DNA of 60,616 nt, taken from the NCBI GenBank assembly GCA_002683405.1, contig NYTH01000042.1:1-60616 (forward strand), written 5' to 3'. The position numbers and the translations under genes were made by a program. Origin of the DNA: Salinisphaeraceae bacterium. GTDB lineage: Bacteria > Pseudomonadota > Gammaproteobacteria > Nevskiales > Salinisphaeraceae. The notes below the pieces were generated by a model that was not told the DNA's origin, ran no database searches, and saw nothing but the letters and a program-made list of their open reading frames with translations. Within the stretch, counting starts at the first letter, position 1, and each line of letters opens with the position of its first letter. Shown here piece by piece: positions 14,462 through 60,616 of the stretch.

Positions 14462-14700
14462 CCGTTCGGGCTGAGCCTGTCGAAGTCCGAACTGAACGAA
14501 GCCCGGGTGGCGGGCTGGTTGGAACGCTGGGCTTTTTTGGCGCCAGGTGCCGCTGCAGAGGCGCCCTTCGACAAGCCCAGGATGAACGGTAGAGAGGAAA
14601 TGGATGGGTCACCGCCGACACCGTTCGGGCTGAGCCCGTCGAAGTCCGAACCGAGCGAAGCCTGCCGCCTCGACATGTTCTCCCGGACTCACTCAGGATG
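14462..14700. repeat. REP-like repeat array B between pilC and pilD
   Basis: At least four units of the CTGAGCC(T/C)GTCGAAG family. Two forward copies have the CCGTTCGGGCTGAGCC flank and continue into TCCGAAC(T/C)GA(A/G)CGAAGCC (14462 and 14621). One inverted copy, CCCTTCGACAAGCCCAGGAT, lies near 14565. No gene is visible in the 350-bp pilC-pilD gap. Confidence 0.85.
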
Positions 14701-17202: not shown

Positions 17203-17418
17203 GTGCCGCGCTCCATCCCCTGCCCGCAATGCGGCGAAGCCTGCTCGCCGGCCCCGAGCAATCGCTGGCGGCCGTTTTGCAGCAAACGCTGCAAGATGAT
17301 CGACCTGGGCGACTGGCTGGACGAGTCGAACCGTATTCCCGGACCGCCCAGCGGTGCGCCGGGAGCGGATGACTGGTCGGCAGGCGATGACGATGATCGG
17401 GGGCCAGCCAGCCACTAG
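17203..17418 (+). CDS. yacG: DNA gyrase inhibitor YacG (zinc-finger protein)
   Basis: A 71-residue protein with a CPQC...FCSKRCK treble-clef zinc site and DLGDWLDESNRIP, the YacG signature. YacG binds GyrB and inhibits gyrase in E. coli. It starts at GTG 17203, 3 bp after zapD. Its TAG stop (17416-17418) falls inside the left terminal repeat of the MITE-like element, so the native C-terminus may have been altered by insertion. The acidic tail (GADDWSAGDDDDRG) is common in the family. Confidence 0.92.
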   Translation: MPRSIPCPQCGEACSPAPSNRWRPFCSKRCKMIDLGDWLDESNRIPGPPSGAPGADDWSAGDDDDRGPASH

Positions 17419-17579
17419 TGTAGTGCGTCACATTTGATGGCACATTAGACCGAGTTCCATTTTTCGTCAGGCAAGGCGCGCCGACAAGTCATAGCCGTAG
17501 CTATGGCGAGGAGGTGCAACGCCGCATGGCGGAAGATGGGGCCGGTATAAGGGCCAGACAGTGTGGCGCACTACACTAG
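17415..17579. mobile_element. 165-bp MITE-like element with terminal inverted repeats (copy 1)
   Basis: The ends CTAGTGTAGTGCGTCACA and TGTGGCGCACTACACTAG are an 18-bp inverted repeat with one mismatch. The interior has a CATAGC-CGTA-GCTATG hairpin and no convincing ORF. A second copy begins at 60518 and matches over its visible ~98 bp with about one difference. Small size, terminal repeats, no transposase and high identity indicate a recently active non-autonomous element. CTAG is present at both ends and may be target duplication or part of the repeat. Confidence 0.85.
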
Positions 17580-17603
17580 GTGAGAGCAGGTGTTTTGCGC
17601 GGG

Positions 17604-18026
17604 AGCCTTCGTTCGGTTCGGACTTCGACGGGCTCAGCCCGAACGGTATTTCGCTTTCCTCGGCATTTGTTGTCCGCGCATTTTTATCCAATCACTTCTA
17701 CCCGCTCTCTTCTATCCGCTCATCCTGAGCCTGTCGAAGGAAGCTTGTCGAAGGAAGCCTGGCGAGGAAAAGCCGTTCGCCCTGAGCTTGTCGAAGGGCC
17801 TTCGGTTCGGACTTCGATAAGCTCAGCCCGAGCGGTGGTCGGTTACACCCTCAGTGGTTATCCGCGTATTTCTATCCAGGCACTATTATTCGCTCACTTC
17901 TATCCGCTCATCCTGGGCCTGTCGAAGAAAGCTTGTAGAAGGAAGCCTGTCGAGAAAAAGCCGTTCGCCCTGAGCTTGTCGAAGGGCGCTCGATTCGGAC
18001 TTCGACAGGCTCAGTCCGAACGGGGC
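17604..18026. repeat. REP-like repeat array C between the MITE and the Nudix gene
   Basis: Forward units (CCTGAGC(C/T)TGTCGAAGG near 17724, 17782, 17911 and 17967) alternate with inverted units (GACTTCGAC(G/A)(G/A)GCTCAG near 17620, 17810 and 17998). The mirror-image pairs bracket short spacers, as in REPIN-type doublets. The spacers repeat phrases such as TATCCGC(G/T). Nothing else is visible in the 476 bp from the MITE to 18055. Confidence 0.88.
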
Positions 18027-18055
18027 TGTGTTGGTGCTGCCCCCGGCACCGTGCG

Positions 18056-18994
18056 TCAATCGGCCGGCCAGAGCCCCCGGATGGCGGCGATGCCCTGGGC
18101 GCCGGCGGCCCAGGCGTCGTTCAGGTCGGCCGGCGTGAGGCCGCCCAGCGCGTAGACGGGCATGGCGATACCTGTGCGGCCGGCGGTGAAGCCGTCCCAG
18201 GTCAGCGGCCGGGCCTGCGGATGGGTTTGCGTGGGCTTGACGGGCGACAGCGTGGCGAAATCGGCCCCCATGCCCTGGGCGCTGAGCAGTTCTTCCCGGT
18301 TGTGGCAGGACACGCCGAACCAGCCGTCGCACGAATCCGGCCGGCCGACCTGCCGGGCCTGCTCAAAGCTCAGATGCATGCCGGCGGCGCCGCGCACATT
18401 CAGCGGACGATCCAGCAGCAGGCTGACGTCGCAACCGGCGAGACTGTTCATCAGCTGATTGGCGAGCCCGGTGTAGGCCGCGTCATCCAGGCCCGGCTGG
18501 CGGAGCCGGACGAGCCGGACGCCGGATTCCACGCAGCGCTGCAGCCTGGCGGCAAACGCGTCGCCATCGCCGTCGAACGCAGGGGTGATCAGGTACTGCG
18601 GCGGCAGCCGCAGGGCGTCGACAATGGGCTTGTTCGCCGCCAGCAGATCGTAGCCACGCAGGCCGTCCGGCGCGGTCCAGGCCAGCGGCTGGCCCTCGCA
18701 GGAGGCGGGCTCGCCCTGCCAGTCGGTGACCAGCCACATCTGCAGGTTCACCCGGCGGTGTGTGTACGCATGGGAAAAGGACAGCAGCGGCCGGGCTTGG
18801 CGAACCTGTATGCCCAGCTCCTCCACCAGCTCGCGGTCCAGCGCGGCGCGGTTGCTCTCGCCCGGCTCGACCTTGCCGCCGGGGAATTCCCACTTGCCCG
18901 CGCCGTCGGTGCCGGGCCGGCGCCGCGCGATCAACACCTGGCCGTCGCGCCGCTGCAAAACGCCGGCGGCGATGTCCAGGGCGGGCGTGGGCAT
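18056..18994 (-). CDS. Nudix hydrolase (MutT-like) fused to a ThiE-like TIM-barrel domain
   Basis: A 312-residue two-domain protein. Residues 1-130 are a MutT-type Nudix domain with the box GGKVEPGESNRAALDRELVEELG, expected to hydrolyse 8-oxo-dGTP. Residues ~170-312 resemble thiamine-phosphate synthase/TenI (CDVSLLLDR, GMHLSFEQARQ, DFATLSPVKPTQTHP, YALGGL). This fusion is known in gammaproteobacteria, usually next to argJ and secA. Whether the ThiE part makes thiamine phosphate is uncertain. The start overlaps the argJ stop by 1 bp (TGATG). Confidence 0.88.
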   Translation of the reverse strand: MPTPALDIAAGVLQRRDGQVLIARRRPGTDGAGKWEFPGGKVEPGESNRAALDRELVEELGIQVRQARPLLSFSHAYTHRRVNLQMWLVTDWQGEPASCEGQPLAWTAPDGLRGYDLLAANKPIVDALRLPPQYLITPAFDGDGDAFAARLQRCVESGVRLVRLRQPGLDDAAYTGLANQLMNSLAGCDVSLLLDRPLNVRGAAGMHLSFEQARQVGRPDSCDGWFGVSCHNREELLSAQGMGADFATLSPVKPTQTHPQARPLTWDGFTAGRTGIAMPVYALGGLTPADLNDAWAAGAQGIAAIRGLWPAD

Positions 18995-43032: not shown

Positions 43033-43182
43033 GAATGTCAGGCTACTGGCCGGCCTTTTCGGCGCATTTTCCCTGATAAACGGAAATGGCCCGGCCCCGC
43101 GCAGCGGCGCGATCAGGCGATCCCGGCGGAACGAACACGCCACGCGCGGCGCGACGCCGACATCGAATGATCAGTGGAAAAT

Positions 43183-43539
43183 GGAGCCGGCCGGTAAGCC
43201 GGGTTCTGTCGAGAGCGGTCATTCATCTGGGACCGACATCACTGTCGGCCTCTAGCGACCTACCCGGAAGCAGCGCGGGCCGCGCCATTGCTTCCCTATT
43301 TGGTCTTGCTCCGAGTGGGGTTTACCGTGCCGCGAACCGTTGCCGGCCGCGCGGTGCGCTCTTACCGCACCTTTTCACCCTTACCGCGATACGCCATGCG
43401 CAGCCGCGGCGGTCTGTTTTCTGTGGCACTTTCCGTAGGCTCACGCCTCCCAGGCGTTACCTGGCACTCTGCCCTGTGGAGCCCGGACTTTCCTCCCGAC
43501 CGGTCCTGCGACCGGACGAGCGACCGCCGAGCCGGCTCC
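43183..43539 (-). ncRNA. rnpB: RNase P RNA (class A)
   Basis: On the minus strand the RNA starts with GGAGCCGGC (43539), which pairs with GCCGGCTCC at 43191-43183 to form helix P1. Universal segments are present: GAGGAAAGTCCGGGCTCC, ACAGGGCAGAGTGCCAGGTA near the 5' end, AGGGTGAAAAGGTGCGGTAAGA in the middle (first 20 nt AGGGTGAAAAGGTGCGGTAA) and GACAGAACCCGGCTTACCGG near the 3' end. The length of about 357 nt is normal for proteobacteria. rnpB next to mraZ and rsmI is a usual gammaproteobacterial location. A TAAAAT -10 element lies at 43551-43546, seven bases before the 5' end. Confidence 0.95.
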
Positions 43540-60517: not shown

Positions 60518-60616
60518 CTAGTGTAGTGCGTCACATTTGATGGCACATTAGACCGAGTTCCATTTTTCGTCAGGCAAGGCGCGCCGACGAGTCATAGCCG
60601 TAGCTATGGCGAGGAG
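60518..60616. mobile_element. MITE-like element, copy 2 (cut by the window edge)
   Basis: Starts CTAGTGTAGTGCGTCACA and follows copy 1 (17415) over about 98 bp. The only difference noticed is GACGAGTC for GACAAGTC. The right end is outside the window. Both copies have the same orientation. Confidence 0.88.

Follow-up and report, generated by a model that had tools for sequence, protein, structure and literature searches.

An IS630-type miniature inverted-repeat element that probably inserted at the stop codon of yacG in a Salinisphaeraceae bacterium and left YacG unchanged

The yacG gene of a Salinisphaeraceae bacterium (GenBank assembly GCA_002683405.1) ends inside a 165-bp element with inverted ends, located at positions 17415–17579 of contig NYTH01000042.1 (60,616 nt; this entire contig, C42 in our numbering, is the stretch analysed and is called the window). 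We read the element as a non-autonomous IS630-type (Tc1/mariner-like) miniature inverted-repeat transposable element (MITE) that inserted at the TA of a CTAG, such that the stop codon of yacG was rebuilt and the protein stayed unchanged, and we assign this reading a probability of roughly 0.87. Its direct basis is the anatomy of the element, the number of places it occupies in the genome, the match of its ends to IS630 elements, the YacG ends of relatives and full-length genes that end at its borders. IS630-type MITEs are a known kind of element; the distinctive feature here is a hairpin core that is common to repeats with different ends.

The yacG ORF (open reading frame; 17203–17418, plus strand, 71 aa) was taken from the ORF list; it scores 66.4 bits with the NCBIfam YacG model, below the cut-off of 83, and has orthologues in 14 relatives. 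Its TAG stop (17416–17418) makes up bases 2–4 of the left repeat, as an earlier, sequence-only reading of this DNA had stated. That reading also held that the insertion had probably cut short or replaced the end of YacG, and it proposed a comparison of YacG C-termini. YacG was found in 15 of the 17 genomes of the family and has a histidine directly before the stop in 15/15 proteins. Among the 14 relatives, the gene ends in CAC-TAG in seven and in CAT-TAG, TGA or TAA in the rest, and the element follows yacG in none (0/14). This identical end without the element refutes the idea of a truncated or replaced tail with a new stop and makes it extremely improbable, even though the TAG does overlap the repeat and stops, e.g. 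that of ubiB, are reportedly provided by QMITE1 in Coxiella (PMC5896051). Since all YacG proteins share the histidine end, the stop of yacG was most likely at this position already when the element arrived, and because CTAG is the kind of target used by IS630 elements, the stop most likely lay in the target and was rebuilt. Thus, an element that supplies a stop codon need not have truncated the gene, which is an easy misreading.

The proposed rebuilding would follow from the junction sequence. An insertion that hits the yacG stop would join the target TA to the outermost base of the element, a G, to give TA+G = TAG, and the protein would not change. By symmetry, the same would happen at the opposite end on the other strand, and a TAA stop would turn into TAG; given the outermost G, TAG and TAA stops that are hit on either strand would therefore become TAG. 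This predicts, as a testable rule, that when a CTAG-seeking transposon multiplies in a gene-dense genome, TAG and TAA stops on both strands would be harmless landing sites. We found no paper stating such a rule in its title or abstract, although it may have appeared in print all the same.

Rereading of the element bore out the 18-bp terminal inverted repeats with one mismatch (left end CTAGTGTAGTGCGTCACA, right end TGTGGCGCACTACACTAG) and the hairpin described earlier; a looser inverted repeat covers 27 nt at 81%. The 18-mer end occurs three times in the window at up to three mismatches, against 0.02 expected. With DNA parameters, the entire 165 nt fold into a single imperfect hairpin (z −7.3; 0/200 shuffles equally stable). 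The element has no transposase gene of its own, and the sole listed ORF with a sizeable overlap of the interior, a mechanical ORF of 74 aa, exits the element. If TA is the duplicated unit, the MITE proper spans 17418–17576 (159 bp, plus strand), as judged from its places in the genome, the long hairpin and the ends shared with IS630. Direct reading and end comparisons place a T-type terminal repeat on the left (GTGTAGTGCGTCACA, 17418–17432, plus strand) and a C-type repeat on the right (GTGTAGTGCGCCACA on the minus strand, 17562–17576). A search of 17300–17700 against Rfam 15 gave no match at E up to 5.

The source genome assembly (58 contigs, 3.72 Mb, 99.1% complete) carries the element at 28 places, the count that the sequence-only reading had proposed to make; a chance origin of the repeat is thereby excluded. 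Ten copies are complete and 18 run into contig ends. By our own count the broken ends comprise nine of T type and nine of C type, which puts the true copy number at 19 to 28. The eight ungapped complete copies differ pairwise by 3.8% on average (2.4–6.1%) and are each 1–5 of 165 bases off the consensus. The description of the family as recently active is borne out only in part, given this mean distance and a search of the assembly that detected no transposase with such ends. The near-identical second copy at 60518 is real, but only its first 99 of 165 nt are present (60518–60616, plus strand; 99% identity over these 99 nt), where the contig stops. No copies were found in plasmids and phages at E 1e-5. 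At their borders, the copies in the source genome have CTAG at 32/38 ends and keep TA at 36/38; the other ends read CTGG and CGAG (both ends of copy L008), CTAA (L009 and L026), TTAG (L013) and CTAC (L018). CTAG is rare in the window (17 observed, 86 expected).

The ends of the element point to an IS630 partner. The end pattern CTAGTGTAGTGCGYCACA was present in 86 stretches of the genome collection, mostly from Acidobacteria or Terriglobia metagenome-assembled genomes (MAGs), with Caballeronia, Massilia, WOR-3, Methylacidiphilum and more among the other bearers. At nine loci the end has an inverted partner 1141–1172 bp away (with four mismatches in L127 and L161). ORFs were listed for five of these nine (359–377 aa, 60–68% identity to the first), and the two submitted to a family scan proved to be IS630 transposases (bit scores 291 and 275, cut-off 100) with a DDE_3 domain. 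The first 14 nt after CTAG are common to the MITE and these ∼1.17-kb IS630 elements (e.g. from Massilia, Caballeronia and Acidobacteria). The IS630-end consensus, built from 23 distinct end sequences of 21 loci that we chose, reads TGTAGTGCGTCACA, followed by a TTAT block at positions 26–29, where the C arm of the element has TTAT and the T arm ATTA. The earlier assignment to a MITE-like family is therefore confirmed and, through the common ends, narrowed to the IS630 type. The proposed search for a transposase with matching terminal repeats yielded IS630 transposases in other organisms and none in the source assembly. Among relatives, five of 13 examined loci with an IS630 profile match have CTAGTGT ends 1.16–1.2 kb apart. 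The MITEs of relative G013 end in CTAGTGTCCTGTAACG, and in the same genome an IS630 fragment lies directly inside this end.

In the proposed mechanism, an IS630 transposase acting in trans would cut and paste the MITE, which would enter the TA of CTAG and duplicate the TA, and the partner transposase would since have been lost from the source genome or would never have been there. This transposition step, TA as the duplicated unit, the rebuilding rule, the loss or absence of the transposase and the deletion origin of the short remnants described below are the parts that we infer. IS1182 was also considered as the partner and rejected: its profile, run on 16 genomes, had no match in the source genome, and the IS1182 ends of relatives differ.

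To count how often genes end at the borders, a mechanical test scored a side when the longest of three frames had at least 100 codons (a threshold set by us) and ended at the border TAG. Counted by ends, 10/20 sides of complete copies, 7/18 of broken copies and 11/12 of remnants scored. Non-element CTAGs served as controls; drawn from the flanks of these loci and from the window, with remnant sites removed, they scored at 20/90 sides and 18/45 sites, and so CTAG in the source genome is itself concentrated at stops. Against these controls, remnants were enriched (7/7 sites, P = 0.004), as were complete copies and remnants together (14/17, P = 0.003), and stops on both sides of a site were found at 7/15 sites compared with 2/45 (P = 0.0005). 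The test has false positives and, as yacG with its 72 codons shows by failing it, false negatives. A 219-aa ORF that ends at the second copy (60518) had no Pfam match, and we take it to be antisense to an ABC-transporter gene. Because the raw test overcounts in this way, genes with family support were counted apart. Such a gene ends at the border TAG at 12 of the 28 places, namely at 7/10 complete copies (L001, YacG; L003, DUF1295; L004, desaturase; L006, AraC-type; L007, pyruvate kinase; L009, PilZ; L010, LuxR-type) and 5/18 broken copies (L016, L023, L024, L026 and L028), with YacG counted as supported despite its score below the family cut-off. The family scan covered long ORFs, 17 of them ending at borders of the element and one at a remnant, to which YacG was added. 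Pfam gave no match for six of these border ORFs (L002, L003 left, L009 left, L010 right, L020 and L021).

The source genome also holds short remnants of the element. The 22-bp form CTAG-TGTAGTGCGYCACA-CTAG occurs at exactly four places (C12, C33, C36 and C43), with no match to a reversed control pattern in the same genome, and three looser single-arm remnants are present on C28, C30 and C57. In contrast to the 22-bp form, the single-arm remnant L058 (C28 near 169298) precedes an inverted copy of itself (GCGTCAC-GTT-GTGACGC). The remnants sit mostly between facing genes, although numbers are small. At L062, genes for farnesyl diphosphate synthase and BioF face each other and both end at the remnant, and at L066 an enoyl-CoA hydratase gene ends there; all score over their family cut-offs and match to within a few positions of the profile end. 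A Nudix protein, under its cut-off, ends at L057 and a DUF494 protein at L059. The L060 remnant presumably lies between polyphosphate kinase and a facing exopolyphosphatase (ppk/ppx), and we take the gene at L061 to be CarB.

We interpret the 22-bp remnants as products of deletions across the hairpin. Of the four exact remnants, half have the T found in one arm and half the C found in its counterpart. A deletion guided by ACACT, which with 5 nt is among the three joint-longest direct repeats tested, yields the C form. The 22-bp structure was absent from all 87 exact end matches outside the source genome (0/87) as well as, by eye, from 20 stretches around another family's ends in relatives G010 and G013. 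Alternatively, the remnants could be footprints of excision by the transposase. In favour of footprints, four exact copies of one structure each retain both border CTAGs, and in the T form a deletion would have been guided by no more than 3 nt of repeat (ACA, ranked 14th of 45). In view of the ACACT repeat and the absence of the form among end matches in other organisms, we consider footprints rather unlikely and retain deletion as the better explanation.

The centre of the element is an ∼89-nt hairpin core (17454–17542, plus strand), which scores 95.3 bits with covariance model R1, its own sequence being among the model's 22 rows; the core part of the second copy (60557–60616) matches too. 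When 100 relatives were searched with the element, 23 genomes including the source had matches. G024 alone matched over near full length (86%), and the remaining 21 relatives over the middle of the element or less. Many relatives' matches lie in elements with other ends (CTAGTGTCCTGTAACG, CTAGTGTCGTGAGTCAG, CTAGTGTCTCGGCACA, CTAGTGGCCTGCGAC and CTAGGGTGTGTTGACA). For the core alignment, its own core was combined with 21 of 31 candidates, which we chose for a clear core and without near-duplicates. In this alignment, 20 of 26 pairs are doubly changed, 93.9% of cells are paired (compared with 73.3% in shuffled and 22–52% in slid alignments) and 11 columns, some of them unpaired, are invariant; this conservation is conditioned on the choice of rows, and the shuffles leave relatedness in. 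At E 1e-5 the model matched 88/369 genomes of the class, from 69/272 genera, no more than 11 candidates being scored in each genome; the tool itself describes its E-values as rough. In a draw from the phylum, 47/299 genomes matched, 19 of the same class (source genome included) and 28 outside it, 25 of these in one family and many weakly.

The core is not tied to one kind of end. Among 23 loci surveyed by eye (those with full flanks, of 30 fetched), the core stands within IS630-like TAGTG/TAATG ends in six, TATACYCGT ends in four, loose TTGNACG/CGTAG ends in ten and AGGGGGTGTTAACA in one, with two unclear. The TATACYCGT...ACGRGTATA ends surround the core in L280, L287, L292 and L296. In L278, L281–L283, L285, L291, L293–L295 and L300 it is wrapped by a loose TTGNACG upstream and CGTAG downstream, a repeat family that is not obviously a transposon and that gave no Rfam match at gathering thresholds in the loci scanned. 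Conversely, short Acidobacteria elements with the ends of our element have other interiors (L120, L141 and L168), and across the 86 loci (571 kb) of other organisms that carry these ends, nothing matched the core better than E 0.019 (24 bits). The core thus occurs in repeats whose ends are of three or more kinds, and ends and core seem to combine freely. Fourteen loci (13 carrying cores of other genomes) gave no Rfam 15 match at gathering thresholds, and core strings sought as text in the literature led to no paper on such a repeat, judged by titles and abstracts.

One tentative explanation, to which we give less than even odds, is that the core is an old, sequence-conserved module of Gammaproteobacteria and some other Pseudomonadota, carried by repeats whose ends, of unrelated types, may be swapped according to the transposase available. 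A conserved cell factor (of replication, recombination or RNA processing) might then recognise the core and aid the spread or tolerance of any such repeat. If so, a shared core with exchangeable ends would raise the question of what holds the interior of a MITE constant while the ends change. A different view is that the host retains the copies for a benefit from the hairpin, which might act, for instance, as a two-way transcription end or an RNA-processing site between convergent genes. The long hairpin of the whole element, the covarying pairs of the core and the convergence of yacG and the next gene would suit such a role, but the core is found within several kinds of end, transposon-like ones included, reading of the sequence shows no T-run beside the stem and places the 60518 copy upstream of a gene, and a mobile palindrome may keep its pairing without any host function. 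A host role is therefore improbable in our estimate.

How the borders divide between element and target bears on the IS630 reading. At the left border (17415–17418), C and TA are read as target, with TA (17416–17417) the likely duplication, and G as the first base of the element; at the right (17576–17579), C would be its last base, and TA (17577–17578) and G target. No duplication beyond CTAG was seen by eye in the ten complete copies. IS630-type elements target and duplicate TA (PMC2170065), and the same paper cites a title on an IS630 transposon that prefers the TA of 5′-CTAG-3′. The two borders of copy L009 read CTAG and CTAA, a difference that fits TA duplication better than duplication of four bases. 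Since a 4-bp (TTAA) duplication exists for one IS630-family element (PMC3606827), we regard TA rather than CTAG as the likely, unproven, duplicated unit, and on this basis 17418–17576 is taken as the element.

Could CTAG instead belong to the element or be duplicated whole, as in some IS5-, IS1182- and IS481-type elements? This would agree with CTAG at 32/38 ends, with MITEPsy1 (table entry 'IS5?'), which duplicates CTAG or YTAA (PMC3189936), and with IS elements of IS1182 profile in relatives, which can have CTAG borders (L072). The transposases found with the same ends are nevertheless IS630, IS1182 is absent from the source genome and has different ends in relatives, and the unequal borders of L009 fit it less well; we judge this unlikely.

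Several results weigh against insertion of an IS630-type MITE at a CTAG stop. Complete copies alone are not significantly enriched at stops (7/10 compared with 18/45 sites, P = 0.085). Past the first 14 nt, the arms match single IS630 ends at just 3–12 of 20 positions. A search of the source genome with a profile of five transposases gave zero matches, in a draft assembly from which a collapsed multi-copy IS could be missing. With the general IS630 profile there were two matches, a strong one that belongs to another subgroup and a weak one, and both lack CTAGTG ends nearby. The strong match (L269) looks to us to be shortened, and the weak one (L270) is presumably an integrase-type transposase. 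A 4-base duplication has a precedent in the TTAA case (PMC3606827). Finally, a direct empty site was not seen among the genomes compared, none of which is of the same species or genus; for the convergent pair at L060, an empty site was sought downstream of ppx in 13 relatives, and no common CTAG was found between the facing stops.

Among known systems, the IS630-type MITE described here resembles RUP of pneumococcus, which is ∼107 bp, geneless and present in many intergenic copies, has IS630-like terminal inverted repeats and a TA target, and has been proposed to be moved by IS630-Spn1 (PMC2229807). RUP differs in its host and in the organisation of its terminal repeats (9 bp in the table of that paper, compared with 18 bp here). 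In our case, moreover, no partner was found in the genome, and insertions are mainly at CTAG, in many instances a stop codon. IS630 and ISY100 share the TA target and duplication (PMC2170065) but encode a transposase, whereas our element encodes none. MITEPsy1 of Pseudomonas syringae is a 100-nt MITE with 18-nt terminal repeats and insertion at CTAG or YTAA; it differs in its ends (GGAAGGTCTGAAAAAGCC) and in its suspected source, ISPsy2 (PMC3189936). Copies of QMITE1 of Coxiella burnetii likewise overlap gene ends and supply stop codons, but they are 300–400 bp long with variable direct repeats of 2–3 nt, and PMC5896051 does not link them to IS630, a word absent from its text. Correia/NEMIS elements are also small repeats with terminal inverted repeats, TA at the ends and long stem-loops (PMC2229807); going by that description, they are set apart by sequence and host.

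In the window, the element stands between yacG and a convergent ORF on the minus strand (18056–18994). We take its 312-aa product to be a fusion of a Nudix (MutT) part with a thiamine-phosphate-synthase-like part. Intergenic short palindromic repeats (CCTGAGCTTGTCGAAGGGC / TTCGGACTTCGACAGGCTCAG) at 17590–18040, adjoining the element, and at ∼14500–14680 form a separate repeat family. In an Acidobacteria MAG (L165, 1711–1846), two CTAG-bordered copies of one ∼118-bp element lie head to tail with one CTAG in common. The sole Rfam match in the window was the bacterial class A RNase P RNA at 43179–43539 on the minus strand.
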